Under the pieces are notes generated by a model. The model searched no databases and had not been told where the DNA came from. It saw nothing but the letters and a program-made list of their open reading frames with translations. A stretch of 64,000 nt of DNA from Bacillus sp. FJAT-22090 (GTDB taxonomy: Bacteria > Bacillota > Bacilli > Bacillales_A > Planococcaceae). Made by a program: the position numbers and the translations under genes. The DNA is taken from the NCBI RefSeq assembly GCF_001278755.1, contig NZ_CP012601.1, forward strand, positions 1,116,001 to 1,180,000, in the 5' to 3' direction. Positions 793-60,705 of this stretch are shown piece after piece (within the stretch, counting starts at the first letter, position 1; each line of letters begins with the position of its first letter).

Positions 793-880
793 TTCAACTA
801 ACGGGTGCGTTGATCCAAAAAGGATTAATGCACTATTTTTTGAAGTTCTTTTTGAGCTAACGCAGCAGTTTAGTTGAAGA
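793..880 (+). repeat. attC-like repeat, type E, complete
   Basis: Left arm TTCAACTAAC with GGGTGC, right site CTAACGCAGCAG followed by TTTAGTTGAAGA. The middle is an imperfect hairpin (GTGCGTTGATCC against GGATTAATGCAC) followed by T6. The rest of the 521-1022 gap shows nothing I can recognise. Confidence 0.8.
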
Positions 881-1022
881 ATCTTTATTAGCTCATATTC
901 AACAATCGGACCATTTTCTTGAATAAGAGAAGGGATTATTCGTAAGTAAATCGAAGTTAATCAGAAGATGTTATTTAGTTTAGCATCCGGACGTATATAC
1001 AACATTAAGGAGGAAATCGATT

Positions 1023-1439
1023 ATGAGCAATACACAGACATTAAGAGGACTCACCACAGTCAGTTTTTGGACGGATGATCTAGTAGCGGCAAAGAGGTGG
1101 TACGCTGAGCTATTGAGCATCGAACCATACTTCGAACGTCCAGGATATGCCGAGTTTCGCCTCGGCGACTACCAGCATGAGCTGGGCTTAATCGATAGCC
1201 GCTACGCGCCCGAGAGTTCAGCGACCGGACCGGCAGGTGCTGTAGTGTACTGGCACGTCGACGATGTAACAGCAATTTTCAAGAAGCTGCTGTCTATGGG
1301 AGCGAAAGAGTACGAGGCACCCAAAGAGCGCGGCGAGGGGTTCATCACTGCTTCCGTGGTCGATCCCTTTGGAAACATCCTAGGCATTATGTATAATCAG
1401 CACTATTTGGAGGTTCTGGGTTCGACCAGAAAAGGATGA
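1023..1439 (+). CDS. VOC family (glyoxalase/bleomycin resistance-like) protein
   Basis: Protein of 138 residues with the vicinal-oxygen-chelate fold pattern: beta-alpha-beta-beta-beta modules starting TTVSFWTDDLVAAKRWYAELL and ending VVDPFGNILGIMYN, a hallmark VOC C-terminus. Such proteins are metal-dependent lyases, dioxygenases or drug-binding proteins; the substrate cannot be told. A clear AGGAGG lies 10 nt before the ATG. Its base composition is about 55 percent GC by eye, with codons such as CTC, GCG and CGC, against roughly one third GC around it, so it was probably acquired from a GC-richer donor. Confidence 0.85.
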   Translation: MSNTQTLRGLTTVSFWTDDLVAAKRWYAELLSIEPYFERPGYAEFRLGDYQHELGLIDSRYAPESSATGPAGAVVYWHVDDVTAIFKKLLSMGAKEYEAPKERGEGFITASVVDPFGNILGIMYNQHYLEVLGSTRKG

Positions 1440-1628
1440 CCCTCAATGTCAGTTTTCAAAGTTCACCGCGGCTTGGCAAGTTGTACTGTGGTGAGTACCA
1501 ATTATCTGTGCAGCGGCAGCTGTTTCGATTTATGTTATGCTTACCCCAACGGTATTCAACTACTATTCTGGAGAAAAAAAGCACAAGAAATATGAAAAGT
1601 TGAAAAGGCTTAAGAGATAATATTAGTA

Positions 1629-1760
1629 AAAGACGGGTGCTTTAGTTAAACAAGACCATCAGTTTGATGGTCTATTTCTTTATCCAAAACATCAAGTAGA
1701 TCTAAGAAATCCATTGTGAAATGTTACACTTAAACTAACGCAGCAGGTTAGTTCAAGAAG
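1629..1760 (+). repeat. attC-like repeat, type A, left arm degenerate
   Basis: Keeps GGGTGC, TTTAGTTAAACAAG, the hairpin GACCATCA..TGATGGTC and the right site CTAACGCAGCAG plus GTTAGTTCAAGAAG. The outer-left arm is lost. The 1440-1628 stretch before it holds only a doubtful 49-codon frame at 1446-1595. Confidence 0.8.
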
Positions 1761-1817
1761 GAAAACAATTAAGTTGTGGAGAATACATAATAAAATAAAC
1801 TAAAAAAGGAAAGATTT

Positions 1818-2648
1818 ATGAGAATACTTATATTAGGAGCAACTGGCTTTTTGGGCTCGAATTTATTCCAACTGGCTACAGAGAACAAAAATCTAACAGT
1901 GTTTGGCACCTCACGTTTTCAACATGAGAACTCTAATATTATGCAAGTAGATGTTACAAACAAACAATCAATAAGAAGTGCCATTAGAAAAATAAATCCA
2001 GAAGTAGTTATATGGTCACTTATGAGTTCTGAAGAAGAAACCAAATTAATTAATTTAGGGCTCGAAAATTTATTATCAGAAATAGAGAGTGCAACAAAAC
2101 TTATATTTCTATCAACGGATGCGGTTTTTGTTGAAGGAATTGGTGGTTACAAAGAAACGGACCGAATTGGTACCTTGCCTAAAGAAGCAGCCCTAGCTGA
2201 TTATGTGAACGGTAAATATACTGGAGAAAACCTAATTCTCAATAAACATCCAAATCACGTGATTCTTCGTACTGGCCCACTATATGGTAATAATGGGGAT
2301 CAAGGTATTGAAAAACGAACCATACAAATAATCGAGAAAATAAAAGAGAATCAGTCATTTGATGCATGGACAAATGTGTATAAAACTTTTGTAAATGTTA
2401 ATGATTTATCAAGTATGATTATTGAATTGACTAATATAAAATTTAAAGGAATTTTGCATGCTGGACCCATACATAAAGAAAGCTACTATACGTTTTATAA
2501 AAAGAGATTGGAACAACTTGGATGGAATAATAGTCTTCTCCGCCCAACTATAAAATCTAAAGAAGATGCCCCTTATCTATCTCTTGATACGTCTCTAAAT
2601 ACACAAAAAGCTCACCAATTGCTTAAAACCAATTTTCGCACAGTTTGA
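1818..2648 (+). CDS. RmlD-like NAD(P)-dependent sugar-nucleotide reductase/epimerase family protein
   Basis: Extended short-chain dehydrogenase of 276 residues. The N-terminus MRILILGATGFLGSN is a Rossmann GxxGxxG nucleotide site; STDAVFV carries the active-site Thr region and YVNGK fits the catalytic YxxxK. The order matches the RmlD substrate-binding family (dTDP-4-dehydrorhamnose reductase relatives). It stands alone rather than in a rhamnose operon, so the true substrate is open. AGGAAAG precedes the ATG. AT-rich codon use matches the neighbourhood. Confidence 0.75.
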   Translation: MRILILGATGFLGSNLFQLATENKNLTVFGTSRFQHENSNIMQVDVTNKQSIRSAIRKINPEVVIWSLMSSEEETKLINLGLENLLSEIESATKLIFLSTDAVFVEGIGGYKETDRIGTLPKEAALADYVNGKYTGENLILNKHPNHVILRTGPLYGNNGDQGIEKRTIQIIEKIKENQSFDAWTNVYKTFVNVNDLSSMIIELTNIKFKGILHAGPIHKESYYTFYKKRLEQLGWNNSLLRPTIKSKEDAPYLSLDTSLNTQKAHQLLKTNFRTV

Positions 2649-2691
2649 CTAATTATTGATTTTTCTGAGATTGAAAGAACAAGGTGATTGT

Positions 2692-2724
2692 TATTCAACT
2701 AACATCGTGCTTTAGTAGAACAAG
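2692..2724 (+). repeat. attC-like repeat, left site only
   Basis: Left arm ATTCAACTAAC, altered spacer ATCGTGC and inner arm TTTAGTAGAACAAG. No right site is recognisable before the next gene. Confidence 0.55.
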
Positions 2725-2771
2725 GCTAGTCAGGACATAGCTCTTATTGTTAATGTGGAGGGGTGAAACAA

Positions 2772-3296
2772 ATGGATAACGGGTTTATTAAAATTAGAAA
2801 AGCAATTTTAAGCGATGCGGAAGGAATAGCTAAAGTACATGTCACCAGTTGGAAAACAACATATGCTAACATAGTTTCTGATGAATATTTAAGTAGTCTT
2901 TCGTATGAAAGCCGTGAAAAAATGTGGACCAACGCAATTCCGAATGGAGGTGTTTATGTAGCAGAAAGCCATCAGGGAATAATAGTAGGTTTTTCTAAAG
3001 GCGGTAAAGAAAGAAGCAGTAAATATAATGGGTACGATGGAGAGATATACGCTATCTATATCTTAAAAGAGTATCAAGGTAAAGGTATTGGAATAGCCCT
3101 TGTTAAACCAGTCATAGATGAAATTAAAGGAATGGGATTAAACTCTATGCTTGTTCTTGTCTTAAAAGATAATATTTCTCGTCTGTTTTATGAATCACTT
3201 GGAGGTAGAAAAATAGATACTGTTGAAGTGGAGATTGGAGGAAAGAAATTTTCCGAACTTGTATATGGTTGGGAAGATATTAGGAATATATTTTAA
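2772..3296 (+). CDS. GNAT family N-acetyltransferase
   Basis: Typical Bacillus GNAT of 174 residues. IRKAILSDAEGIAKVHVTSW opens the fold, AIYILKEYQGKGIG is the V-motif plus the Q/RxxGxG/A acetyl-CoA loop, and NISRLFYESLGG closes the domain. Substrate unknown. A GTG at 2763 is in frame but overlaps the GGAGGGG ribosome site at 2757-2763; the ATG at 2772 lies 8 nt after it and is the better start. It is a single-gene unit between repeats at 2692 and 3300. Confidence 0.87.
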   Translation: MDNGFIKIRKAILSDAEGIAKVHVTSWKTTYANIVSDEYLSSLSYESREKMWTNAIPNGGVYVAESHQGIIVGFSKGGKERSSKYNGYDGEIYAIYILKEYQGKGIGIALVKPVIDEIKGMGLNSMLVLVLKDNISRLFYESLGGRKIDTVEVEIGGKKFSELVYGWEDIRNIF

Positions 3297-3299
3297 TTA

Positions 3300-3419
3300 T
3301 TCTTCTTCAACTAACGGGTGCTTTAGTTTAACAAGCTAAGCCAAAAATCTTTGGTTCAGATTCGGTACATAATATGTATATCCTTTTTCATCTAACGAAT
3401 CAGGTTAGTAGAAGAAGGA
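3300..3419 (+). repeat. attC-like repeat, type B, complete
   Basis: Outer arms TTCTTCAACTAAC and GTTAGTAGAAGAAGGA pair with one mismatch. The middle differs from type A and shares its body with the copy at 3941. Confidence 0.8.
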
Positions 3420-3475
3420 TTTTTTACTTACAATTTGAATATATATTGGTAAAGACTATTGATGGAGGGCTCTTT

Positions 3476-3946
3476 ATGGCATTAGTTTCAATTTATACTA
3501 TTGGTAGGCTTTACCACCCTTATGATCACCCTGCCTCTCGTGAATTTTTTCAAGTTGGAAATGAAGTATATCGTCAGGCAAATAGATCAGGACTAATAGA
3601 GGCTTTTTCACCTGAGGGAGTCACTATCTCTGAAGAAACCATAAAGGGTAATGGATATCCCATTCTTACACTAACAGTATGGAGAGACCTTCAATCCTTA
3701 TATCGCTTTTCCTATTCAGGCAAGCATTTGCAAGCAGTACGAGATAGAAACAGATGGATTGAGACATATCCAGAAAAACATCTTTCATATGTAGTTTGGT
3801 GGACAGAAAAGGTAACGGATGTCTCTTGGGAGGAAGCATTCAAGAGATACAACTATTATATTCAGCATGGTTCCACACCTTTTGCATTTGATTTTAAGCA
3901 TACATTTGATGAAAAAGGGGAGACGTTCTTGATTAGAACCACTTAA
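3476..3946 (+). CDS. DUF3291-like protein
   Basis: 156 residues, rich in Trp, Tyr and His. LTVWRDLQSLYRFSYSGKH and YVVWWT followed by an EEAFKRYNYYIQHGSTPFAFDF tail resemble DUF3291, a small beta-barrel family without known activity. A longer frame begins inside the upstream repeat at 3374, but GGAGGG at 3464-3469 places the start at ATG 3476. The stop codon TAA lies inside the left arm of the next repeat, so the repeat boundary touches the coding end. Function unknown. Confidence 0.75.
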   Translation: MALVSIYTIGRLYHPYDHPASREFFQVGNEVYRQANRSGLIEAFSPEGVTISEETIKGNGYPILTLTVWRDLQSLYRFSYSGKHLQAVRDRNRWIETYPEKHLSYVVWWTEKVTDVSWEEAFKRYNYYIQHGSTPFAFDFKHTFDEKGETFLIRTT

Positions 3947-4057
3947 AGTAACGGTGTCCTTTAGTTTAACAAACTACGTTAACAATCTTTGTTTCACATC
4001 TGGAACATAATGCGTATTATCCTTGTTCAACTAACGAAGCAGGTTAGTTCAACAAGG
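3941..4057 (+). repeat. attC-like repeat, type B, complete
   Basis: Left arm CACTTAAAGTAAC contains the stop codon of the preceding gene. Right site CCTTGTTCAACTAAC, spacer GAAGCAG, arm GTTAGTTCAACAAGG; the two right arms pair 14 of 15. Confidence 0.8.
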
Positions 4058-4107
4058 TTTTTCATTTAAGTGGTAAAATATGTTTATAAGAAGGAGCTTT
4101 TTATAAA

Positions 4108-4392
4108 ATGATATTAGCAATTTTTATAATACTAGCACTTGCAATTGTTTGTTTATCTTTATACCTAACTACAAGGAATAAGAAAAATAGAATAATAACT
4201 GGAATTGTCTTGACATTATCGGTTTTAACGTATCCGTTATCTTTACCTTTGTTACATGAAACTAAAGTGCTTCAAGGATTAGAAGGAACAGCAACTTTAA
4301 TGCTTTTTTATTTTATAATATTGTTAGGTGGAATTATCACAATCATTGCAGGTCTTTTCACAAAAATGAAATTAAGTGAAAGTAATAAATAA
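4108..4392 (+). CDS. Small integral membrane protein
   Basis: 94 residues with three hydrophobic segments at roughly residues 2-20, 30-48 and 62-85, and basic loops (RNKKNR). No family recognised. AAGGAG at 4090-4096 precedes the ATG. The unit's own repeat (5851-5980) is now separated from it by the IS element inserted at 4412, so gene and repeat were probably neighbours before that insertion. Confidence 0.6.
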   Translation: MILAIFIILALAIVCLSLYLTTRNKKNRIITGIVLTLSVLTYPLSLPLLHETKVLQGLEGTATLMLFYFIILLGGIITIIAGLFTKMKLSESNK

Positions 4393-4459
4393 AACTCTTA
4401 GTAAACTGAACTGCCCCGTAAATGTTAGACACTAAACTAACATTTGCGGGGTGTTTTTT

Positions 4460-4981
4460 ATGGCTAGATTTACAGCCGAAGAAAAAATCAAAATGGTATT
4501 GCGTTATTTAGGAGGCAATGAAAGTTATCAGGAAATAGGAAGGGACTTAAAAGTCAGTAAAGTTGTGATGCGAGGATGGGTAAGACTTTATGAACATCAA
4601 GGTGCAGAGGCATTCTGTCAACCCTATACAACTTATACGCAACAGTTTAAACTAGATGTACTGAGTTATATGAACGAAATGGGTACATCCTCTCTTGAGA
4701 CGGCCGCAATTTTTAATATTTCGTCAGCTGGTCTGATTAGAAAGTGGCGAAGAGCGTTTGAAATTGGTGGAATCGATGCCCTAAAACCAAAGAAAAAGGG
4801 GCGTCCATCCATGAAAAAGGAAACCAAATCGAATGACAAAAAAACATCTCCAGTTGAAGGATCTATGGAAGCTCTACGAGCTGAAAATGAACGTTTGCGT
4901 ATGGAGAATGCCTACTTAAAAAAGTTGAACGCTTTAGTTCAGGAAAAGGAAAAATTACAAACAAAATCAAAGCGCAAGTAA
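4460..4981 (+). CDS. IS3-family transposase OrfA
   Basis: 173-residue DNA-binding subunit. It holds two helix-turn-helix units ([18 protein letters not shown] and [18 protein letters not shown] onward) and a C-terminal leucine-zipper stretch [19 protein letters not shown] that mediates oligomerisation in this family. GGGGTG lies just upstream of the ATG. The reading frame ends at 4981 while orfB is open in the -1 frame across this point, as expected for OrfAB made by programmed frameshifting. Confidence 0.88.
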
Positions 4982-5010
4982 TTTTTGAACTAAAGGCTGA
5001 ATTTGATGTC

Positions 5011-5820
5011 GTGGAATTAGTTAAAGTCGCAGACATTCCACGTAGTACTTATTATTACTGGGAAAAACGATTACAGCGTGAAGATAAATACGCGAAGGAA
5101 AAAGAAGCGATTGAAGCCATTTATCATGAACATAAAGGACGTTATGGCTATCGTCGCATCGCCAAAGAATTAAAGAAAATAAACATTTTTCATGATCCAA
5201 AGACGATCAACCGATTGATGAACGAAATGGGTTTAAAATGCGAAGTAAGGATAAAGAAGTATCGTTCTTATCGTGGAAAAGTCGGTAAAATCGCACCGAA
5301 TTTACTAAACCGTGATTTCCATGCAGGAAAGATAAATGAAAAATGGGTAACGGACGTAACGGAGTTTCATTTATTTGGTGAGAAACGTTATTTATCACCT
5401 GTTTTAGATTTATGTAATGGCGAAATCATTGCTTACAAGATAATGAACCGTCCAGTTTATCAACTTGTGGGTGATATGTTAGAAGAGGCGATCGGAAATT
5501 TAAATCCAGGAAATGAAGTCATTCTACATTCCGATCAAGGCTGGCATTATCAAATGAAGAAGTATCAGAAGACATTAGAGAAACACAATATAAAGCAAAG
5601 TATGTCCCGTAAGGGTAATTGTTTAGATAACGCAGTTATTGAGAACTTCTTTGGCTTATTAAAGTCTGAGCTTCTTTATCTACAAGAGTTTGAGAGTATG
5701 GAACATTTTGAACGTGAACTACATGAATATATCGAGTATTACAACCATAAACGAATGAAGGCAAAATTAAAAGACCTAAGTCCAGTAGAATACCGAACTC
5801 AGGTCTTAGAAGCTGCTTAA
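5011..5820 (+). CDS. IS3-family transposase OrfB (DDE integrase domain)
   Basis: 269 residues from GTG 5011, but the frame is open further upstream through orfA ([11 protein letters not shown]), consistent with -1 frameshift expression as OrfAB. An HTH_21 segment ([17 protein letters not shown]) precedes an rve integrase core with all three acids: [17 protein letters not shown] and [18 protein letters not shown]. The protein appears complete and could be active. Confidence 0.9.
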
Positions 5821-5850
5821 ACTATTTGTCTAACTTTATTGGGTCAGATC

Positions 5851-5980
5851 AAACTAACGGGTGCTTTAGTTAAACAAGACCATCATTTCGATGGTCTATT
5901 TTTATACCCAGAACATCAAGTATATTTCGGCAATCCGGTGTGAAATGTTACACTTAAAATAACGCAGCAGGTTAGTTAAA
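5851..5980 (+). repeat. attC-like repeat, type A, complete
   Basis: AAACTAACGGGTGC, inner arm TTTAGTTAAACAAG, hairpin GACCATCATTTCGATGGTC plus T5, right site CACTTAAAATAACGCAGCAG and GTTAGTTAAA. The outermost left bases are displaced by the IS end. Confidence 0.88.
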
Positions 5981-6062
5981 TACATTAGAACTTTACGCTG
6001 ATGACTAAGGTCTGACATATGAAGAAAGTCTGGCAGAAAAACAATATAAAGGAGGGAATACT

Positions 6063-6632
6063 ATGTCCAATAACGGAAACCAAAGAAGAATAATTTTAGA
6101 TTTAGCGGTTACTTTAGATGGATTTATTGAAGGGAAAAATGGGGAAGTTGACTGGTGCATCATGGACTCTGATATGGGGTTCATTAATTTCTTAAATCAG
6201 ATTGATACTATTTTATATGGAAGAAAAAGCTATGATTTATGGGGACAATACACTCCAGAGAATGAGGTTTCTAATACTGAAAAAGAAATTTGGAAATCAG
6301 TTCATAGTAAAGGGAAATATGTATTTTCTAGAACGCAAAAAAAGACTGATAATAAAGCAATATTTATAAATGATAATATTTTTGAAGAGGTAAATAAATT
6401 AAAGAATGGGCCAGGGAAAGACATCTGGCTGTATGGAGGAGCGAGTCTTATTACGACTTTTATAAATTTAGGGCTTATTGATGAATTTAGATTATCCGTT
6501 CATCCCGTAATTTTGGGAGAAGGAAACCCCTTATTCATTGACATAAAACAGAGGTTGAATCTAATACTGGTAAATACAAAAACGTTTTCCTCTGGAGTTG
6601 TTCAACTCTGCTATCATCGTAATGAGAAGTAA
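6063..6632 (+). CDS. Dihydrofolate reductase family protein (RibD C-terminal type)
   Basis: 189 residues of the DHFR/RibD reductase fold. LAVTLDGFIEGKNGEVDW, ILYGRKSYDLWG, and the NADP-site stretch DIWLYGGASLITTFINLGLIDEFRLSVHPVILGEG are characteristic. Members reduce pteridine- or flavin-like substrates with NADPH; this YyaP/YwjB-type branch is uncharacterised. AAAGGAGGG stands 8 nt before the ATG. Single-gene unit flanked by type A repeats. Confidence 0.85.
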   Translation: MSNNGNQRRIILDLAVTLDGFIEGKNGEVDWCIMDSDMGFINFLNQIDTILYGRKSYDLWGQYTPENEVSNTEKEIWKSVHSKGKYVFSRTQKKTDNKAIFINDNIFEEVNKLKNGPGKDIWLYGGASLITTFINLGLIDEFRLSVHPVILGEGNPLFIDIKQRLNLILVNTKTFSSGVVQLCYHRNEK

Positions 6633-6674
6633 TTATAAGCATATTATGCATAATTCAAGGAACCATTCTTGCAC

Positions 6675-6805
6675 AGTTAACGGGTGCTTTAGTTAAATAA
6701 GACCATCATTTCGATGGTCTTTTTTTATACTCAGAACATCAAGTAGATGTAGTCAATCCAGTGTGAAATGTTACACTTAAACTAACGCAGCAGTTTAGTT
6801 GAATT
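6675..6805 (+). repeat. attC-like repeat, type A, complete
   Basis: Hairpin GACCATCATTTCGATGGTC plus T7; right site CTTAAACTAACGCAGCAG then TTTAGTTGAATT. The left arm is degenerate. The rest of 6806-6995 shows nothing recognisable. Confidence 0.85.
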
Positions 6806-6995
6806 AGGATTAATTAAAAGAGATATTAAAATGAGATACAAACTTTAGAGTCCACTCAAGAAGAAGGATACTTTACGTAAGAAGTATCATCGTATCTTAA
6901 AAAAGTTGTAAATAGGAAGTATATAAATTAGGAAGCAGTAAAATAAAAATACTCCCTGTATTTCATATCTACACTTGTAAAAGCAGGTGATTCTG

Positions 6996-7412
6996 TTAAT
7001 TGTTTGTAGTGATTTCAATCTTTTTTATATGAATATCTTCCGTTCCGGCATCTAATGCAGTCCTGTAATATAAGCATTTATGCTCGATGACTTCCATTGT
7101 TTTTTTTAGTTCTTCCATTTGTGCTTCTACAATCGCTTTTCGTTCTAAAAACATGTTAGATCTTTGTTGCAATGTAGAATCCCCATCAGAACACCAATCA
7201 ATGAATTGTTTAATTTCCTTAATAGGCATTCCTGTGGCTTTTAAACATTCAATTATTTTTAAGGCGTCAATATCGGATTCTTTAAAAACTCTAATTCCGC
7301 TAGGTGTACGTTCTACAAAAGGCATAAGTCCCTCTTTGTCGTAGTAACGCAAGGTATATACTGTAAGATTCAGTTCGTTTGCAACTTCACTAATAGAATA
7401 GGTCTTCATCAT
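6996..7412 (-). CDS. adhR: MerR-family regulator, AdhR-like
   Basis: 138 residues: winged-helix DNA-binding domain (YSISEVANELNLTVYTLRYYDKEGL), a dimerisation coiled coil at about 78-118, no long effector domain. A Cys at about residue 55 (IIECLKATGMP) matches the position of the redox/aldehyde-sensing Cys of B. subtilis AdhR. It is divergent from adhA, and near-identical palindromes lie before both genes, so it probably controls itself and adhA in response to reactive aldehydes. GGAGATTA precedes the ATG pair. Confidence 0.82.
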   Translation of the reverse strand: MMKTYSISEVANELNLTVYTLRYYDKEGLMPFVERTPSGIRVFKESDIDALKIIECLKATGMPIKEIKQFIDWCSDGDSTLQQRSNMFLERKAIVEAQMEELKKTMEVIEHKCLYYRTALDAGTEDIHIKKIEITTNN

Positions 7413-7434
7413 TAATCTCCTTTTTATAGATAGA

Positions 7435-7452
7435 CTTCGAGTTAACTATAGG
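7435..7452 (-). promoter_or_regulatory. Probable AdhR operator in front of adhR
   Basis: CTTCGAGTTAACTATAGG shares the AGTTAACTATAGG core with the adhA operator at 7534-7551. It lies 23 bp before the regulator's start, suiting autoregulation. Confidence 0.65.
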
Positions 7453-7529
7453 TTATGTGGGCATCTTATCATGGTATATGCGGGATGTCAAAGACACCAT
7501 ATAGGGAAGTAGAAAATTATATTAATCAC

Positions 7530-7560
7530 TTGACCTAGAGTTAACTATAGGAATTAACAT
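7530..7560 (+). promoter_or_regulatory. adhA promoter with MerR-type operator
   Basis: TTGACC (7530-7535) and TAACAT (7555-7560) are 19 bp apart, the long spacing activated by MerR-family proteins. The spacer holds the near-perfect dyad CCTAGAGTTAACTATAGG at 7534-7551. Confidence 0.8.
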
Positions 7561-7683
7561 AGTGTTGCAAGGGAAATTGGGCTGGGAAAAATGAATGAAT
7601 AGAACATTATTATTCATTATGTATTAATAACCAGTACAAGCACATTCTCTTGGTTAATATAAAATTCGTAGGAGGTTTTACTT

Positions 7684-8724: not shown

Positions 8725-8889
8725 TTTGCGTAAATTAATAATTTTTCTTTATACACGAGGATGTTCTAAAAGCATAATTTTGGGACATCCTTTTATATTA
8801 GTTGCTTCAAGGTTGGAATAAGTCAAAAGTTAACCAAGCATTTTTTAGTGTTAAATTGCTTTTGAAAATAAAGATAGGTGGTTTTAATA

Positions 8890-52905: not shown

Positions 52906-52920
52906 GTTAATATAACGAGT

Positions 52921-52948
52921 AAAGCCAACATTAAGTTGGCTTTTTTGT
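52921..52948 (+). terminator. Intrinsic terminator
   Basis: AAAGCCAAC / GTTGGCTTT, five-base loop, T6; ends the acetyltransferase gene. Confidence 0.87.
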
Positions 52949-53025
52949 TTACATATGGAATATAATGTGTATCAATTTCTCAAACTCATTTACGAAGTTT
53001 TATTAGAGGTTATTTAAAGATACAA

Positions 53026-53859
53026 TTAATTCTCTATCTTATCGACTTTTATCATAATTTTGGTGACGAAATGTTCTTTATGATTTTTTACGACTGTATC
53101 ATAAATGTACTCTTCAAAAATATAATCTCCTAAGGTTAAATTTAAAGCTTCCATCTCTGAAAAAAGTAGCTTATATGTTTTATGTATTGTTTTCTCATCC
53201 CCAATATGATATCCAATGAGAAAATCACCCTTAACAGTTCGAAAATAAGGATGTCCTTCCTGTGGATTTGGTTGTTCAATATATAAATAGCTATAATTAG
53301 TAAATTCTCCCTTTAATACATGCTCTCGTTTCGTTATACTGCCTATTGGATATCCTGTATCCAGATGTGATTCGTTCAATTCATTAATAAAATCTGAAAA
53401 AACCTCTACAAATTCTTCATCAGTTATATTTTCAATATTTCTGCTTATATAAAGTGTTACATCAGGTAATTGTTCAAGTGTAATTTGATGAAAATCTATG
53501 TGTTCTGCTTCTTCCATTAATGCGATTTTTGCCTCGATAATTTTTTCCTTCGTCTCAATCTCCTGACGCTTTTTTACTATCTCTTCCTTTTTTTGATACA
53601 TTAAGGATAAAAAACTTTCAGGTGTTTTATTTTGCGTGTAATGTTGAATTTCAATTAGCGACATACCAAGATCCTTTAATAAATCAATAACAAAGAATAG
53701 TTCTAATTGGCGAATTGAATAATATCGATATCCTTTTTCACTTTTCAATACCGGAGAAAAAAGACCGATTTGATCGTAATAAAAGAGTGTCTGTTTGTTT
53801 ACTTTACAAAGCTTTGCAAATTCACCTGTAGTTAAATATTTTCCATTCTTTTTATTCAT
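53026..53859 (-). CDS. MerR-family multidrug-binding regulator (BmrR-like)
   Basis: 277 residues. MerR winged helix (YLTTGEFAKLCKVNKQTLFYYDQIGLFSPV), a linking coiled coil at about 78-115, and a C-terminal GyrI-like effector domain (ISRNIENITDEEFVEVFSDF onward). This layout is that of BmrR, which binds cationic drugs and activates an efflux pump. It is divergent from the MFS gene across a shared promoter with a 19-bp spacer. Confidence 0.85.
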   Translation of the reverse strand: MNKKNGKYLTTGEFAKLCKVNKQTLFYYDQIGLFSPVLKSEKGYRYYSIRQLELFFVIDLLKDLGMSLIEIQHYTQNKTPESFLSLMYQKKEEIVKKRQEIETKEKIIEAKIALMEEAEHIDFHQITLEQLPDVTLYISRNIENITDEEFVEVFSDFINELNESHLDTGYPIGSITKREHVLKGEFTNYSYLYIEQPNPQEGHPYFRTVKGDFLIGYHIGDEKTIHKTYKLLFSEMEALNLTLGDYIFEEYIYDTVVKNHKEHFVTKIMIKVDKIEN

Positions 53860-53876
53860 TTTTTACAACACCACCC

Positions 53877-53907
53877 TTGACTATATAGCTACTATATACA
53901 CTAGGAT
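53877..53907 (+). promoter_or_regulatory. MerR-type promoter/operator of the MFS gene
   Basis: TTGACT and TAGGAT are 19 bp apart; the spacer holds the dyad TATAGCTACTATA with 7-bp arms TATATAG / CTATATA. The spacing predicts activation by the divergent regulator. Confidence 0.8.
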
Positions 53908-53977
53908 AAAAATTGTAAACAAATGAAACCATACAAGTTAGTTTACAGCAATTAGTATGTTAAGGAGAATATAGAAA

Positions 53978-55153
53978 ATGAAAACACATAAAGTCACCTT
54001 AGGATTATTATTAATGAATTTATTTATCGCCTTTTTGGGAATTGGTTTAGTAATTCCAGTCTTACCTACACTGATGAATGAATTAGGCATAACTGGAACA
54101 ACAATTGGTTATTTAACAGCGGCGTTTGCAATTGCTCAATTGATTGTTTCACCATTTGCAGGGAAAGCAGTAGATAAATTGGGTAGGAAAATTATGATTG
54201 TAATTGGTTTGTTTATTTTCGGCATCTCCGAATTTTTATTCGGTCTCGGTAAAGAAATCGAAGTGTTATTTATTTCTCGTATTTTAGGTGGTATTGGTGC
54301 TGCATTTATAATGCCAGCTGTTACGGCTTTTATTGCTGATATTACAAATTTGGATACTCGCCCAAAGGCACTCGGTTATATGTCAGCTGCAATTAGTACA
54401 GGATTTATTATTGGCCCAGGTATTGGTGGATTTTTGGCGGAATTTGGAACACGGATACCGTTCTTCTTTGCAGGAGCACTTGGTACAATTGCTGCTATAC
54501 TCTCTATAATTTTATTATCTGAGCCAAATCGTACAAAAGAAAGTAATGATCAAGTATTAGAAGGTAAGAAGGGCTTCAAACGTATAATTGCACCAAAATA
54601 TTTCTTAGCGTTTATTTTAATTTTTATTGCCTCTTTTGGATTAGCAGCTTTTGAATCATTCTTTAGTTTATTTGTGGACCACAAATTTCAATTTAAACCA
54701 TCGGATATCGCAATTGTTATCACAGGTGGTGCAATTTTTGGTGCAGCATCTCAAGTCATATTATTTGATAGACTAACAAGAATTTGGGGAGAAATTAAAC
54801 TGATTCGTTACAGCTTAATATTATCAGCCTTACTTGTCTTTTTAATGACTGTAGTTCATTCCTATTTTTCCATTTTACTTGTTACATTTATTGTTTTCGT
54901 AGGATTCGATTTATTTAGACCAGCTGTTACTTCATATCTTTCGAATATCGCAGGGAATGAACAAGGTTTCGTTGGTGGAATGAACTCTATGTTTACAAGT
55001 TTAGCGAACATTTGTGGTCCAATTTTAGGGGGGATGTTATTTGATATAAATATTAACTATCCTTACTATTTTGCGACTGTAATACTAGCTCTCGGGATAG
55101 TTCTAACATTGTTCTGGAAAAGTGCAAATGATTTCAAAAGAAGGGGAAATTGA
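53978..55153 (+). CDS. Multidrug efflux MFS transporter (Bmr/Blt/NorA-like)
   Basis: 391 residues, 12 membrane segments. FIAFLGIGLVIPVLPTLMNELG, motif A GKAVDKLGRKIMIVIG, and motif C region AISTGFIIGPGIGGFLAEFG are those of DHA1 drug:proton antiporters. With the BmrR-like regulator next door it should export cationic or hydrophobic drugs. TAAGGAGA precedes the ATG. Confidence 0.88.
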   Translation: MKTHKVTLGLLLMNLFIAFLGIGLVIPVLPTLMNELGITGTTIGYLTAAFAIAQLIVSPFAGKAVDKLGRKIMIVIGLFIFGISEFLFGLGKEIEVLFISRILGGIGAAFIMPAVTAFIADITNLDTRPKALGYMSAAISTGFIIGPGIGGFLAEFGTRIPFFFAGALGTIAAILSIILLSEPNRTKESNDQVLEGKKGFKRIIAPKYFLAFILIFIASFGLAAFESFFSLFVDHKFQFKPSDIAIVITGGAIFGAASQVILFDRLTRIWGEIKLIRYSLILSALLVFLMTVVHSYFSILLVTFIVFVGFDLFRPAVTSYLSNIAGNEQGFVGGMNSMFTSLANICGPILGGMLFDININYPYYFATVILALGIVLTLFWKSANDFKRRGN

Positions 55154-55231
55154 TATCCTCGATTTAGAGAAAAAGGTAATTTAAATTCAGAAGCAGCAAA
55201 TTATGGAATCCAATAGATTAATAAATACGCA

Positions 55232-55356
55232 GATTACTAACGTTGTGTTGATCCAAGAAGGGAAAGCCTCTATTTGTGTTGAACTTATAGAACTAATAGA
55301 CAGGTTAGTTCAACAATATCGTTATTGAACTAACGACGTCGGTTTGTCCAATAAGC
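55232..55356 (+). repeat. attC-like repeat, type E with two right sites
   Basis: ATTACTAACGTTGTG, hairpin with TTGATCC; a first right site AGAACTAATAGACAGG / TTAGTTCAACAAT, then a second TTATTGAACTAACGACG / TTTGTCCAATAAG. No gene lies between the two. After it, 55400-55465 has a decayed signal-peptide-like frame. Confidence 0.72.
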
Positions 55357-55599
55357 ATGCATTACCAATTGAATGATTTAAAAGAGAGGATTAATAAACA
55401 TTAGAAAGTTAAAACTATTACTTACGTTTTTTGCAGTCTCAGTTTTGTATAGAAATCGCTATTGATGATTCATACGACTTTAGAAATGAGTAAGGAACGG
55501 TAACGTAATGCCGTTGGAGTAATAACTGAACAATTAATACAGGAGAATTCTTTTGTTGTGTAGAAAATAACCATAAGATTCTTTTTTGGAGGTAAGAAT

Positions 55600-56043
55600 A
55601 TGTTTATCGTAAATGTTGAAGGTGCAATATACAAAAATGAAAAATGGCTCTTAATAAAACGTAGCGAAAAAGAAGAACACGCAGGAGGTTCACTATCTCT
55701 TGTTGGTGGTAAGGTAGAAAACGAAGGAAACTCAACAGATGTTTTAGAAAGAACACTTAAAAGGGAAATTGCTGAAGAAATTGGAGTAGAGGTTTCAAAT
55801 CTTAGATATGTTAATAGTTCTTCCTTTGTTACAGACGCGGGAATAAGTGTTGTAGATATCGTCTTTCTATGTGACCACGAATCTGGAGAAGCCTTTGCTA
55901 AGAGTCCTGATGAAGTTGACAGTGTTTTTTGGATGACAACCAAGCAAATTCTTGAGAATTCAACTATACCTATTTATTTAAAGGAAAATATAAAACTTGC
56001 GGATAAATTAGTAAGCACTAATGAAAAAACAGTTGTATTGTAG
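55600..56043 (+). CDS. NUDIX hydrolase
   Basis: 147 residues. The box is GGKVENEGNSTDVLERTLKREIAEEIGV; it has about six more residues than usual between the first Glu and REU, a variant spacing. SVVDIVFLCDHESGEAFAKSPDEVDSVFWM is typical of the MutT core. Substrate unknown. GGAGGTA stands 7 nt before the ATG. Single-gene unit. Confidence 0.84.
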   Translation: MFIVNVEGAIYKNEKWLLIKRSEKEEHAGGSLSLVGGKVENEGNSTDVLERTLKREIAEEIGVEVSNLRYVNSSSFVTDAGISVVDIVFLCDHESGEAFAKSPDEVDSVFWMTTKQILENSTIPIYLKENIKLADKLVSTNEKTVVL

Positions 56044-56051
56044 TTGGCATT

Positions 56052-56110
56052 CTCTTATTCAACTAGCGGGAGCTTTACTTCAAAAGGAGTAAGGCCTTTG
56101 TTATTGAGCT
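56052..56110 (+). repeat. attC-like repeat, type D, fused to a type A copy
   Basis: CTCTTATTCAACTAGCGGGAGC, hairpin GCTTTACTTC..GGAGTAAGGC. Its right site TTATTGAGCTAACGGGTGC doubles as the left site of the next copy. Confidence 0.78.
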
Positions 56111-56239
56111 AACGGGTGCTTTAGTTAAACAAGACCATCATAAGATGGTCTATTTTTACGTTCAAAATAACAAGTAAATCTCGGTGTTTCATTGTGAAAT
56201 GTTACACTTAAACTAACGCAGCAGGTTAGTGAAAGAGGA
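56101..56239 (+). repeat. attC-like repeat, type A, complete
   Basis: GAGCTAACGGGTGC, TTTAGTTAAACAAG, hairpin GACCATCATAAGATGGTC, right site CTTAAACTAACGCAGCAG with GTTAGTGAAAGAGG. Confidence 0.88.
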
Positions 56240-56327
56240 AATAAAAAACGAGAATAGAATATAAACATTGAGGATTAGGAGTCTTATCAATTAATAAACA
56301 TTAAATTATTTTAGGGGAGTCAGTGAC

Positions 56328-56894
56328 ATTAATATTAATCAAAATGTAAAAACGTCGGGTGCTTACGTTTTATATCGGGGGCTGCTTATTTTTCAGGTTG
56401 GTCCTACAGAAGAGGCAGATAACCTTGGAGTAGTTAGACTTGGTGGGCATAAAGAATTTGAAGAAACCGCATTAGAGACAGCTAGGCGTGAAGTTTTTGA
56501 AGAGGCTTCAATGAAAATAACTCCAATAAATTCTCCAATAACTTATCATATGAGTGAGTGGGGAAATAAGCCTTCCATAATAGGGTTAGGCGAGGAAATA
56601 GCTCCAATTTTAGTTAAAGGAAATGAGCAGGAATCTTTATCAATAATGTATCTTTCCTACTCTGAAAATGAACCAAATCCCTCTTCAGAAACTAATGGGC
56701 TTCTACTACTAACTCCAGAAGATGTTCATTTTATCTGTAATAATAAAATTACTTTAAATGATTTTATTAAACAAAATGGAAAAGTGATATTAAAAGGAAA
56801 TATAAATAGAGATTTATTTTTAATACCTTTTCCTCAACTATTATTTCTTTCAAAATTGTTAAAAGAACATCCAGATTTATTCATTATAAAATAA
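56328..56894 (+). CDS. NUDIX hydrolase, apparent ATT start
   Basis: About 188 residues. The frame is open well before the first ATG (56511), and that upstream part holds the NUDIX core: GAYVLYRGLLIFQVG and the box GGHKEFEETALETARREVFEEASM, in which the last Gly is Ser. AGGGGAG at 56313-56319 is 8 nt before ATT 56328; no ATG, GTG or TTG suits this frame. So it uses ATT, lost its start, or carries a frameshift near GTG 56323. A gene call from ATG 56511 would miss the catalytic box. Confidence 0.62.
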   Translation: MNINQNVKTSGAYVLYRGLLIFQVGPTEEADNLGVVRLGGHKEFEETALETARREVFEEASMKITPINSPITYHMSEWGNKPSIIGLGEEIAPILVKGNEQESLSIMYLSYSENEPNPSSETNGLLLLTPEDVHFICNNKITLNDFIKQNGKVILKGNINRDLFLIPFPQLLFLSKLLKEHPDLFIIK

Positions 56895-56925
56895 AATCAA
56901 TTAAATGAGGATGTTTGTGAAACTA

Positions 56926-57018
56926 ACACTTAAACTAACGGGTGCTTTAGTTGAGGATAGTGGATTGTTTAGGCAACTCTTTTTCTTTTGGACTACCTGG
57001 GTAAGTTAGTTGAATAAT
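56926..57018 (+). repeat. attC-like repeat, type C, complete
   Basis: CACTTAAACTAACGGGTGC, TTTAGTTGAGGAT, hairpin GTGGATTGTTTAGGCAAC with CTCTTTTTC, right site GGACTACCTGGGTAAG with TTAGTTGAATAAT. Confidence 0.82.
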
Positions 57019-57058
57019 TATGATAAAATAGGTAGTAAAAAAAGTTGGTGATTATTCT

Positions 57059-57367
57059 ATGAATTGGAATTGGAATGAGACCTCAATTAACCTCCCTTAT
57101 ACTTTTGATAACTTAAAGGAATTGTTAAATAACATTTGTAAAAGAGAAAATAAGTTCTCACAATACGAGTTTGCAAAGTGGTGTGATAACCTTACAATGG
57201 CTTTTGAAGACGATGAGCATGATGCTGATGATTTGAATGATAAAGATGAATTAGCATTATGTGTTGCACGAGATATAGAATGTCAATGGGATTTATATTT
57301 AATCAATACATATTCAGATAAAGTATTGCAAACATTAGACTTATCTCAAGTTGCCTTGCCACAATAA
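57059..57367 (+). CDS. Hypothetical acidic protein
   Basis: 102 residues, strongly acidic in the middle (FEDDEHDADDLNDKDELALC) with a Trp/Asn-rich start MNWNWNETSINLPYTFDNL. The composition recalls immunity or inhibitor proteins, but I recognise no family. TTGGTGATTATT precedes the ATG, the same leader type as the unit at 26199. Single-gene unit. Confidence 0.6.
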   Translation: MNWNWNETSINLPYTFDNLKELLNNICKRENKFSQYEFAKWCDNLTMAFEDDEHDADDLNDKDELALCVARDIECQWDLYLINTYSDKVLQTLDLSQVALPQ

Positions 57368-57421
57368 TGGCTTCTTAAATGGTTTGAGGAATTGAATAGT
57401 TTATAAGCTGATAAGTTACCA

Positions 57422-57456
57422 ATCTTGTTCAACTAACAGTTGCCTAGTTAAAGATG
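57422..57456 (+). repeat. attC-like repeat, left site only
   Basis: ATCTTGTTCAACTAACAG, TTGC, CTAGTTAAAGATGAG, followed at once by an unrelated strong terminator. Confidence 0.65.
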
Positions 57457-57458
57457 AG

Positions 57459-57497
57459 AAAAAAGATCGTTCACATTTAATGAACGATCTTTTTTAT
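57459..57497 (+). terminator. Intrinsic terminator
   Basis: AAAAAAGATCGTTCA / TGAACGATCTTTTTT with a short loop. The A-run on the left makes it potentially bidirectional. Confidence 0.87.
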
Positions 57498-57545
57498 GAA
57501 TTCAACCTATCGATTTCAACTTTTTTTGAAAATTTTTCAAGAACT

Positions 57546-57574
57546 TGAAATTATTTAACTATATAACTCGTTAT
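57546..57574 (+). promoter_or_regulatory. ECF-type promoter candidate
   Basis: TGAAAT and CGTTAT with 17 bp between, about 57 bp before the intact ECF sigma gene. The -35 lacks the usual AAC, so support is moderate. Confidence 0.5.
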
Positions 57575-57630
57575 TAGTGAAGAGAGAAAGAAACGAGATA
57601 TGCGCATAATCGTTTTACAAGGAGGTTCAT

Positions 57631-58197
57631 ATGGAAGAAGAGCTGCAGTGGATTCAAGAAGTATTAACTGGCAACAAGCAGGCTTATACTCACATTATAA
57701 ATAAATACAAAAACTTGCTATATGCGACTATTTTACGGATGACCAAAAATCCGCAAATTGCTCAAGACTTGGTTCAAGAATCATTTATTAAAGTATATCA
57801 CCAGCTTGGGAAGTATGATAATAAGGGTTCTTTTTCGAGTTGGATTTACCGGGTGACTATAAACCATTGTATGGATGAGTTCAGAAAGAAAAGCTACCAA
57901 ATGAAACAAGTAGAAATAGACGAAGAAAGAGTTGTAGATTCTATTCATCCAGAAGTTATTTTATTGAAAAAGGAAAAAAGTAGACAGTTAGAACGATTGA
58001 TCTCAACTCTTCCAGAGGATGAAAGAATGATTATTCTATTACGATATGTAAATGAATTAAGCTATGAAGAAATAAGTGAACTGGTTGAAGTACCACTTTC
58101 AGGGGTTCGTAATAAACTTCATCGAGCAAAGAAAAAAATGAGAGAAACGGTAAATCGGGAAGGAGGCTATTTTTATGAACTGTCCGAAGGTAGATAA
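57631..58197 (+). CDS. ECF RNA polymerase sigma factor
   Basis: 188 residues, complete. Region 2: YKNLLYATILRMTKNPQIAQDLVQESFIKVYHQL and GSFSSWIYRVTINHCMDEFRKK; region 4: LISTLPEDERMIILLRYVNELSYEEISELVEVPLSGVRNKLHRAKKKM. It resembles the SigM/SigW/SigV group. AAGGAGG precedes the ATG. It overlaps its anti-sigma gene by 23 bp. It is the only undamaged one of three ECF sigma loci here. Confidence 0.88.
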   Translation: MEEELQWIQEVLTGNKQAYTHIINKYKNLLYATILRMTKNPQIAQDLVQESFIKVYHQLGKYDNKGSFSSWIYRVTINHCMDEFRKKSYQMKQVEIDEERVVDSIHPEVILLKKEKSRQLERLISTLPEDERMIILLRYVNELSYEEISELVEVPLSGVRNKLHRAKKKMRETVNREGGYFYELSEGR

Positions 58198-59752
58198 ACT
58201 TTCCCAGTACGCTGATAACCTACTAACACAACAAGAACATTCTCAAATACTTACACATATAAACACTTGTGATACATGTACAAGTATTGTTCAACTCTTT
58301 AAAGAGGAACAACAATTTTTAAAAGAAAATTTACAATCACCAACATTACCGGATGATTTTGCATCACTTGTTCTGGAACAACTGGAACCATACAAACAGA
58401 AAGATGTACGAAGAAAAAAACAAATCTGGAATCGTATATTTCTATTAGCAGCTAGCATTGTGTTAGCTTTAGGTTTGACTGCTACATTAAGCCCTAGCTT
58501 TGCTCAGTTTATAGAAGGCATGTTTAGTACAAAACAGGTAGATGAAGGACTAAAGATGGCATCAGATGAAGGGTTGAGCGAAAGGGTTAATTTGGAAGTA
58601 TCAGATCAGGATCTTATATTTAAAGTAGAAGATATAATTGTAGATTCATCACGAGTGGCATTATCTTTACAAGTTATTAATGAAGATGGTGTAGCAGAGA
58701 GACCAAACATAAATGAATCAAATAAAGGTAACCGAATTTCAGTTAATGGTTACAATGGTGAGTACACCTACTCCATGGGTTACAGAATGGATAGAGGGTT
58801 AGATTATAATTCTTTTCAAGTGTTTATTAGTGATGAACCTGGATTAGAAAAAGTAACTATCAATTTTCATCTTGTCGAGTTAAACGGCAAACAGGGAAAA
58901 TGGGAGTTAGAGATACCAGTTGAATTAACAAATAACAGTGATAAAACTAAAAATGTAATTCTAAATAATGCTACCCACAATATTAATGGAGTAGCAATTA
59001 ATCTAAAGGAAATACAGTACGCTCCCACTTCAAATACATTGTTGTATGAAACTTCTTATGAATCATCAGAGCAAGTAAAAGTGGAGGATAATTTTCAATC
59101 ATTAAAAGAACAGTTTGGATTTGACGTAACTGAGTTCAATACTTTTGGAACATCTATAAAATATCATATAGAAAATGAAGAAAAGGAAGTTATTCTGAAA
59201 TTTTCACCTTTTAATCAGGAGGAAGCAATGGACGAAAAACTAATCATTAGTTCTGCACGAGGAAAAGGAAAATTAGGTCATACAGCTTGGAAGGAAGCTT
59301 TTGTACCAGATAAAATTGACAGTAAACTCACTTTTGTATTGGATGGTGTCTATAAAGTAGTTCCCACTGATTTTTCTGTTAAGTTCAATCCAAATAAAAT
59401 AAAGGAAAATCCTGTTTCATTTAAATATATGGGAAATGGAGTAACAATAAAAAACGCAGAATTACAGAGTGCAGCTAATACAAGTGAACCGACTTTTTTT
59501 GAAATTGAAATGGAGGTGAATAAAGAAAGCAAAGCAGCGGAACTTGGTATATGGGTGTTGAGGGACGATACTGGAAAATCTTTTAGAATTGACAATGAAA
59601 CTACAACAAAGGGAAAAGAAAGTAACATGCGATCCATCTATTTCAAAACTAATGGTTTAGATGAAATCCCAGAGGAAATGTCTTTACATTTGCTTACTGC
59701 AACTAGCTATTATGAGCTAGAGGAAAAATGGAGAGTTCCGTTATATGAATAA
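58175..59752 (+). CDS. Anti-sigma factor with DUF4179/DUF5643-like extracellular part
   Basis: 525 residues. The cytoplasmic zinc-binding anti-sigma motif is HINTCDTC (HxxxCxxC) in the first 40 residues, a membrane segment lies at about 88-110 (IFLLAASIVLALGLTATL), and about 410 residues are extracellular, beta-rich. FSTKQVDEGLKMASDEGL after the membrane is typical of DUF4179. It should hold the sigma factor inactive until an envelope signal arrives. Confidence 0.85.
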   Translation: MNCPKVDKLSQYADNLLTQQEHSQILTHINTCDTCTSIVQLFKEEQQFLKENLQSPTLPDDFASLVLEQLEPYKQKDVRRKKQIWNRIFLLAASIVLALGLTATLSPSFAQFIEGMFSTKQVDEGLKMASDEGLSERVNLEVSDQDLIFKVEDIIVDSSRVALSLQVINEDGVAERPNINESNKGNRISVNGYNGEYTYSMGYRMDRGLDYNSFQVFISDEPGLEKVTINFHLVELNGKQGKWELEIPVELTNNSDKTKNVILNNATHNINGVAINLKEIQYAPTSNTLLYETSYESSEQVKVEDNFQSLKEQFGFDVTEFNTFGTSIKYHIENEEKEVILKFSPFNQEEAMDEKLIISSARGKGKLGHTAWKEAFVPDKIDSKLTFVLDGVYKVVPTDFSVKFNPNKIKENPVSFKYMGNGVTIKNAELQSAANTSEPTFFEIEMEVNKESKAAELGIWVLRDDTGKSFRIDNETTTKGKESNMRSIYFKTNGLDEIPEEMSLHLLTATSYYELEEKWRVPLYE

Positions 59753-59867
59753 AATAATAAGCCTATAGGATAGAAAATAAAGAAGAAAGTGTCTTCGTCA
59801 ACAAATTTTGTATAAAGTGGTCGCTTTTTTATATGCGTGATTGCAAACAATAATGACTACAATTTTC

Positions 59868-59953
59868 TACAATTAACAGGGCACTTTAGTTTAAAGTCAT
59901 CGGGGTTGCTTAGGCAACTCTTTTTCTTATTGAACGGAAATATAAGTAATAAG
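59868..59953 (+). repeat. attC-like repeat, type C
   Basis: ACAATTAACAGGGCAC, TTTAGTTTAAAG, hairpin GGGTTGCTTAGGCAACTC plus T5, then TTATTGAACGG; the right spacer is lost (ATATAAGTAATAAG). Confidence 0.73.
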
Positions 59954-60000
59954 AAATAATAAATGAAGTACATTATTTAACAAAATTGTTAAGGTGAAAA

Positions 60001-60156
60001 ATGAAGAATAATAAAAATAAATCAAATGTTGGATATACAATATTTAAGTCAACGGGAGTATGTCACGAATTTCCTCAAGCTAATTTAGTAAAACAACAAG
60101 TGATTGGTAACGTACTTTTTATCGAAAAAACATATATGACAGTTATAGTTGAGTAA
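60001..60156 (+). CDS. Small hypothetical protein (51 residues)
   Basis: MKNNKNKSNVGYTIFKSTGV, CHEFPQANLVKQQVIG, NVLFIEKTYMTVIVE. AAGGTGA precedes the ATG. No homologue recognised. It is the only frame in the unit after the repeat at 59868. The following 60157-60643 stretch holds nothing firm; a good ribosome site at 60317-60323 leads to a 4-codon frame, probably a dead gene start. Confidence 0.45.
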   Translation: MKNNKNKSNVGYTIFKSTGVCHEFPQANLVKQQVIGNVLFIEKTYMTVIVE

Positions 60157-60643
60157 AAACTGAAAGTGTAAATGTCCAAGGAAGTATTGATAAAGAATCG
60201 CTGATTTTGCGTTTCATGGATGGCTAACAGGAAATCTTTACAAATTCTTATTAATTCACTGTTTTATTAAACTGTATAATTAACGTGTTATTCAAGCTCT
60301 ATACAAATGTAACAGGAGGGGAATCTATGTATAAAAATTAAAATTTACTTTAAAAAAGACAGATTACAAGGCTTATTAAAAAACTACATATAAAAGGAAA
60401 ATTATAATTATGCAAAAATAAACAATTTGTATCGTTAAAATGTTAGTAATCACCATATTAATGCTAATGACAAACATTAGGTCAATTGTTATTGGGTCAG
60501 TTACTAAATATGTGATGTAACAATCGATGTGCTTGAATAATAAAATAATAGATTGACTTTTTGTCATCTTCCTTATGTACAAATTAAAAGGAGAATGTAG
60601 TTCTGAAAGTAAATTTTGAGGGATTAATATAATTATGAATAAT

Positions 60644-60705
60644 ATTCTTTGACTAATAGGAGCTTTAACCCGATGAGGAATAATGCTCTTTTTTGTTGAA
60701 AAGGA
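60644..60705 (+). repeat. attC-like repeat, type E left half; last copy in the window
   Basis: TATTCTTTGACTAATAGGAGC, hairpin AGCTTTAACCC..GGAATAATGCT, T6 and TTGTTGAAAAGG. The right site is missing. Confidence 0.65.

Follow-up and report, generated by a model that had tools for sequence, protein, structure and literature searches.

The window analysed here, bases 1,116,001-1,180,000 (64,000 nucleotides) of the single-contig, 4,210,291-bp genome of Bacillus sp. FJAT-22090, which we infer to be a Psychrobacillus species, carries the distal end of a large array of short repeats that enclose mostly single genes. The array is probably a chain of direct cores, 20-21 bp long and of two types (L and R), that delimit single-gene units from R to L and terminator units from L to R. 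A dedicated Xer-like tyrosine recombinase, whose gene is nested between an L and an R core in related species, probably exchanges DNA within the core spacers, and gene units and terminator units would thereby be gained, lost and shuffled separately. Sequence comparison shows the two core types, their alternation, the single orientation within each array, the nesting in relatives and the ends of many units at cores, together with an exchange window at the spacer of both cores, lost neighbour order and one clear insertion next to the recombinase gene.

Two core types form arrays of one orientation

We called cores with a weight-matrix scan at a threshold of at least 10 bits. The L core reads AACTAAC-GGGTGC-TTTAGTT and the R core AACTAAM-GNNGCAG-NTTAGTT; each is an inverted pair of arms, which extend further, around a spacer of 6-7 bp. 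The L and R cores of one repeat are direct repeats with a short predicted terminator between them, a hairpin with a T-run: a crude detector scored 496 of the 541 loops as terminator-like, compared with 122 when shuffled and 178 on the reverse strand.

The scan detected 71 core half-sites in the window, spanning 796-59891 (29 L and 40 R on the plus strand, 2 R on the minus strand). An earlier note on this DNA, made from the letters alone, had counted nearly 60 copies of the repeat; the repeats are indeed many, but complete L-R repeats number only 19 (each 71-127 bp), with one more at 3946-4049 whose L core scored as R. Lone L cores and lone R cores also exist. Across the whole genome, a left-half pattern was found 160 times forward and 67 times reverse and a right-half pattern 216 and 59 times, with 0/0 in the control for both. 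In 20 regions, the matrices at the same threshold (both strands, overlaps kept) gave 636 L and 1067 R cores, and 3 L and 1 R in the reversed sequence. The repeats are far above chance level, and the array is real and larger than had been noted.

The large array extends over about 350 kb (~836-1192 kb), with 224 R and 191 L cores on the plus strand and 8 R and 3 L on the minus strand. A second array, with 39 R and 34 L cores on the minus strand and a single R core on plus, lies at 1240-1284 kb, and further smaller arrays were found elsewhere in the genome. The genome-wide search for the consensus that the earlier note had proposed thus returned clustered arrays, each of a single orientation, but both orientations occur in the genome as a whole. 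We call the window the worn end of the large array because the mean score of plus-strand cores, in 20-kb bins, drops from 40.8 bits at 1040 kb to 26.5 bits at 1160 and 1180 kb. A nearly core-free stretch at 1,002-1,039 kb, in the middle of the large array, starts near a truncated copy of the recombinase gene.

The same organisation was observed in a pooled set of 55 regions (2.31 Mb) from the window's genome, relatives and named loci, which holds 1072 R and 900 L cores. Consecutive cores on the same strand were R-L in 686 cases and L-R in 666, with 311 R-R and 160 L-L segments as exceptions to the alternation. R-to-L segments were gene-sized (median 622 bp) and L-to-R segments short (median 40 bp). 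An open reading frame (ORF) of 180 nt or more was present in 604 R-to-L units, and in 533 of these the longest one ran in the array direction; another 58 R-to-L units had no ORF of that length.

The exchange window lies in both core spacers

For pairs of cores with one adjoining unit alike and the second one different, we compared the sequences column by column. Informative columns of the R core tracked the left unit up to column 6 and the right unit from 14 onwards; those of the L core tracked the left gene up to column 5 and, where variable, the right loop from 17 onwards. This left/right split at the spacer was seen for both cores in 57 and 49 gene-unit pairs (limited to two pairs per family) and in 61 and 62 terminator-unit pairs (drawn from the 75-95 nt loop class and not independent). 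The pattern therefore places exchange inside the spacer, 6-7 bp long, of L and R alike.

The two variable bases of the R spacer (NN, columns 8-9) follow neither neighbour. They were equal in 5 out of 39 pairs with the left unit alike (expected 7.1), these pairs again being non-independent and from the 75-95 nt loop class, and in 16 out of 57 with the right unit alike (expected 10.5). Sixteen L-R units are as long as the recombinase unit, and 14 of these are recombinase units by their ends; for the 16 the value was 0.16, with a background of 0.18. A single fixed cut of the attC type would tie NN to one side; random resolution of a mismatched overlap after a two-strand exchange would fit these data better.

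Rearrangement by RecA-dependent homologous recombination between dispersed repeats, with the recombinase merely incidental, would profit from repeats that are many and similar. It is nevertheless very improbable, since in L and R alike the flanks are non-homologous and exchange appears limited to the 6-7 bp spacer that separates them, and since the arrays co-occur tightly, across genera, with one recombinase family.

Gene units and terminator units change neighbours

The comparison of gene units covered 13 genomes of Psychrobacillus as well as others, all distinct species and not strains of one. We found 174 homologous gene-unit pairs, 87 of them at 90% identity or more; among these 87, 69 started at an R core, 55 ended at an L core and 45 did both. 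At 85% or more, 49 pairs allowed a judgement on the two flanks: both differed in 27 pairs, only the upstream flank in 6, only the downstream flank in 11 and neither in 2, while 3 fell between thresholds. Six of the 49 near-full pairs with at least 90% identity joined different genus labels, at 90-96%, which suggests transfer. The right-neighbour family was shared in 2 of 924 homologous unit pairs, and in 1 of 214 for units with at most two homologues. A matching terminator was present in 6 of the 34 homologous gene pairs with a changed upstream flank (random, 6.7%); genes and terminators thus appear to reshuffle almost independently, with a weak gene-loop link remaining.

One insertion could be followed to its ends. 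In genome G001 the R core of the recombinase is followed directly by a unit B, while in G006 the two are separated by a unit X and its L-loop-R, and both junctions fall between GCAG and GTTAGTT. Unit-level differences with breakpoints in the core, which the earlier note had suggested seeking among strains, are therefore seen, between species and not strains.

A Xer-like recombinase accompanies the arrays

The window's genome gave 19 phage-integrase matches, of which 15 were above the cut-off. A separate recombinase family among them has three copies, two of them full-length, and all three lie outside the window:
959,214-960,098, minus strand: recombinase copy, 294 aa
1,001,877-1,002,617, minus strand: truncated recombinase copy
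1,283,001-1,283,885, plus strand: recombinase copy, 294 aa, at the end of the minus-strand array
A tyrosine recombinase at an array end, proposed as a check on the repeats, is thus present in the last of these.

Lengths in the family include 281 and 294 aa, and by sequence it is nearest to XerA-like and XerD chains. Its members have the fold and the catalytic R-K-H-R-H-Y set of Xer-type tyrosine recombinases: in a 26-sequence alignment R140, K164, H230, H256 and Y265 were invariant, and R233 was present in 25 of 26, with one replacement. In 17 loci from relatives and the window's genome, inspected by eye, an R-type core lay upstream of the recombinase start in all 17, degenerate in one, that of the window's own genome; an L-type core with a hairpin followed the stop in 14. 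The sequence beyond these cores varied from locus to locus. In L045 and L057 the L core on the 3' side of the recombinase was missing, and a nearly identical other sequence (GGATTAACGCAAAAACGA...) stood in its place. Another short repeat, AAACGACGCTTTGG, was seen by eye near unit ends, 5' of the recombinase in L130 and in the 2590-2650 kb region of G048.

We scored 42 recombinase loci, namely 41 of the 78 named loci and the Sporosarcina psychrophila plasmid pSP10-266k, with the same matrices as for the window. Cores were present in 39, covering 19 Bacillales genus labels plus the plasmid, and 330 of the 335 cores kept one orientation per locus (null, 1). Cores passed the threshold within reach on both sides of the recombinase in 15 of the 42 loci, 14 of which had one L and one R. 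The recombinase gene was antiparallel to the array in relatives with at least 70% best-segment identity, and still so in two loci at 58% and 47%. It was parallel in eight loci at 49-65% identity (L146, L147, L148, L150, L158, L166, L180 and L184), from Peribacillus, Robertmurraya, Heyndrickxia, Cytobacillus, Bacillus and Sporosarcina globispora. Three loci at 62-63% had no cores (Pseudalkalibacillus, the second Sporosarcina limicola copy and Bacillus RAR_GA_16).

Among 121 genomes, 21 had both recombinase and arrays, 3 the recombinase only, 6 arrays only and 91 neither (Fisher p 3e-15; recombinase at E < 1e-90 with broken copies included, arrays as ten or more R cores). In a set of 398 genomes spread over the class, at least one L-core match occurred in 42 and at least four in six of these; single matches hardly exceed the control, which gives a hit in about ten of the 398 genomes. 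Finally, R cores were present in four stretches from three viral contigs of IMG/VR (L231-L234), three stretches also having an L core; phages may therefore carry units.

The earlier note had named, as a picture that would speak against it, repeats scattered in both orientations beside stable genes, without differences in units and without a co-occurring recombinase. We found clustered arrays of one orientation, units that differ between genomes, and a recombinase that co-occurs.

The recombinase gene, nested between ends that it shares with the short loops, resembles an autonomous element among non-autonomous copies, as if the L-R pieces were terminator elements like miniature inverted-repeat transposable elements, moved by the recombinase and inserted singly behind unrelated genes. 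Such elements would insert independently in either orientation. Here a single orientation holds across 350 kb and within each locus, and many gene units end at cores and are found with different loops, which leaves this explanation with very little probability.

Proposed mechanism and points against it

In the exchange that we favour, the recombinase would act on the cores, with L pairing mainly with L and R mainly with R, by a two-strand core-site exchange with a 6-7 bp overlap in which a mid-overlap mismatch is tolerated. Excised circles would re-insert, preferably beside the recombinase gene, and the terminator units may insulate each gene.

Several results weigh against this. No recombinase copy in the window's genome keeps intact flanking cores; there are remnants, none of which scores as a core (the 959-kb copy has an L-like remnant and an R-like remnant with a shortened spacer, the 1002-kb copy an L-like and the 1283-kb copy an R-like remnant only). 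Six of the 27 array genomes have no close recombinase. Low-variance core columns are noisy, a few contradict the pattern, and the decoupling of NN could partly reflect fast local change instead of exchange. Among the 87 close gene-unit pairs, 42 fail to reach cores at both ends, and we found one clean single-unit insertion plus one probable. Homology ends lay within 25 nt of the R cut point in 12% (left) and 19% (right) of cases, with 3.2% at random; at so low a share, most ends must be otherwise caused or unplaced. Lastly, a crude sigma-A promoter score, taken over the 120 nt at the start of each unit, did not exceed that of shuffled sequence, in line with the remark in the earlier note that units have no obvious promoter.

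The worn cores at the window genome's copies and the six array genomes, in which host Xer proteins may therefore act, could also be explained if host XerC/XerD worked on the cores, as they do on pdif modules, and the nested gene were a passenger; the cores, two inverted arms around 6-7 bp, are dif-like in that layout. However, the nested gene is kept between cores in many genera, in both gene orientations and with conserved catalytic residues, and arrays are absent from the majority of the 121 genomes, though Xer proteins are, to our knowledge, near-universal. We hold this explanation to be highly unlikely.

Content of the window

Among 60 proteins of the window, we found 6 matches to Acetyltransf_1, 4 to NUDIX and 3 to glyoxalase-fold models. 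The features are listed below; complete repeats and lone cores were called by the matrix scan.
796..59891, plus: distal stretch of the array, 69 cores (L or R) on plus and 2 R-like on minus (weight-matrix scan with null)
796..875, plus: complete repeat, L-terminator-R
1023..1439, plus: gene unit, glyoxalase/VOC-fold protein
1628..1753, plus: complete repeat, 125-bp class, L core degenerate
1818..2648, plus: gene unit, RmlD-like NAD-dependent epimerase/reductase
2763..3296, plus: gene unit, GNAT acetyltransferase
3309..3410, plus: complete repeat
3374..3946, plus: gene unit, DUF3291 protein; listed ORF start overlaps the preceding repeat
3946..4049, plus: complete repeat, degenerate L core labelled R by the scan
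4393-5822: IS3-like insertion sequence directly before the L core at 5852, ORFs 4451-4981 (55.9 bits to NF033516, below the cut-off of 160) and 5011-5820
5852..5977, plus: complete repeat, 125-bp class; predicted fold with outer stem, spacer bulges and inner stem (scan, folding)
6063..6632, plus: gene unit, RibD C-terminal/dihydrofolate-reductase-like protein
6675..6800, plus: complete repeat, 125-bp class
8878..9471, plus: gene unit, hexapeptide-repeat acyltransferase
9555..9634, plus: complete repeat
9694..9714, plus: lone R core
10180..10306, plus: complete repeat
10358..10963, plus: gene unit, AAA P-loop kinase-like protein
10980..11104, plus: complete repeat
11931..12056, plus: complete repeat
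12308..12327, plus: lone L core
12929..13011, plus: complete repeat
13099..13674, plus: gene unit, signal peptidase S26-like protein
13719..13738, plus: lone L core
17754..17774, plus: lone R core
17832..18284, plus: gene unit, NUDIX hydrolase
18334..18353, plus: lone L core
18381..18854, plus: gene unit, GNAT acetyltransferase
20449..20519, plus: complete repeat, 70-bp class
22321..23142, plus: gene unit, Amj (alternate to MurJ) family protein
23206..23282, plus: complete repeat
24624..24704, plus: complete repeat
24802..25419, plus: gene unit, NUDIX hydrolase
25651..25776, plus: complete repeat
26407..26426, plus: lone L core
31976..32056, plus: complete repeat
37104..37123, plus: lone L core
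40965..40985, plus: lone R core
41382..41503, plus: complete repeat
41602..42342, plus: gene unit, alpha/beta hydrolase
42834..43352, plus: gene unit, NUDIX hydrolase
43399..43469, plus: complete repeat, 70-bp class
50851..50871, plus: lone R core
56107..56231, plus: complete repeat, 125-bp class; fold z -3.1 (bottom strand) and -4.0 (top strand) (scan, folding)
56933..57011, plus: complete repeat, R core degenerate

Comparison with integrons and other Xer-type systems

Much of this resembles an integron, as the earlier note had proposed: a tyrosine recombinase beside a long array of one orientation, mostly single-gene units with turnover, and an insertion site adjoining the recombinase gene (worn in the window's genome). 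The accessory genes (GNAT, NUDIX, VOC) are of a spectrum familiar from integron cassettes. Array genomes without a recombinase are comparable to clusters of attC sites lacking integron integrases (CALINs), and the repeats share the size and the 1L-2L-variable-2R-1R layout of attC sites. Group II introns lie within the sites, as reported for attC sites in a passage of PMC7923331.

Those introns belong to one family (5' end GTGCGGCCGAGCCTAGG or near) and at all 10 places found they sit in a core (8 R, 2 L), two bases right of the spacer and in array orientation; examples are at 1854357 in G015, at 1964066 and 1999927 in G010, and in G006a. The 3' end was located in five, four of 534-729 nt and one of 1.94 kb with a 442-aa ORF carrying a reverse-transcriptase-type motif. 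In the window we found no intron of this family.

A true, distant integron would have an IntI-type integrase, the folded bottom strand of attC-like sites as substrate and one fixed cut in the right core; for folded attC sites, exchange of one strand is described in the part of PMC3053210 that treats them. Folding of five bottom strands gave z < -1.5 in four and -0.7 in one, with hairpins predicted in some. All arms are alike, and the outer arms and the inner arms of a repeat can therefore pair, as the earlier note had it; yet its two halves do not covary. In 540 repeats searched for covariation of outer (1L:1R) and inner (2L:2R) arms we found none, outer-arm pairing being 5.38 of 7 positions (5.39 with halves re-dealt) and inner-arm pairing 5.27 (5.25). 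The supposed closeness of the core to the attC boxes did not hold: the strict box GTTRRRY occurs in 7 of 887 R cores, the first base being G in 50% and T in 44%. The recombinase reached 91.9 bits against the integron-integrase model TIGR02249, whose cut-off is 265. Further differences from attC sites are that exchange appears to take place in the left half-site too, that NN tracks neither unit, contrary to one fixed cut, and that the loop, a predicted terminator unit, is only loosely tied to the preceding gene. A true integron is therefore unlikely. Membership of the IntI integron family was rejected on the recombinase model, the core consensus and the linkage of gene and site. What stands of the integron likeness is mobile units, a tyrosine recombinase and breakpoints at cores, and the arrays seem integron-like in function but differently built: the recombinase is Xer-like, shorter and nested inside a site, two core types are both apparently exchanged, terminator units would travel apart from genes, and the attC consensus, arm covariation and single fixed exchange point are all lacking.

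The pdif modules of Acinetobacter plasmids are alike in holding genes between two-arm Xer-type cores with a short spacer. Their sites alternate in orientation, whereas the cores here are direct, and the present system has a putative dedicated recombinase, predicted terminator units and hundreds of sites in one chromosomal array. The tyrosine integrases of Tn916/Tn1549 and CTnDOT likewise do not require a match in the overlap (coupling) sequence, but these move one conjugative element and not arrays of gene units. Archaeal XerA and bacterial XerD resolve chromosome dimers at a single dif site, unlike the arrays here.

Passages of the IntegronFinder 2.0 report describe integrons as extremely rare in Firmicutes, with one complete integron, in Limnochorda pilosa, and a few CALIN (PMC9024848), and a review lists Firmicutes, in one of its passages, among the phyla with integrons (PMC8618304). 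In the open-licence literature searched, we found no description of an alternating gene/terminator cassette system. We lean towards the view that Bacillales possess a form of gene capture independent of integrons, in which the recombinase is itself a terminator-type cassette, the two cores are not interchangeable, and an exchangeable terminator caps every captured gene.

If this is true, these Gram-positive bacteria would have a gene-capture system comparable to integrons but of other construction. Hundreds of sites in a single genome, and related systems on a plasmid and in Bacillales of 19 genus labels, would make it an extensive and overlooked channel for gene exchange in Gram-positive bacteria. 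Such a second cassette system of another build would also help to test whether an integron depends on a special integrase or on a folded site, or whether arrays of short cores are enough, and the two-core design could serve for the ordered assembly of genes.

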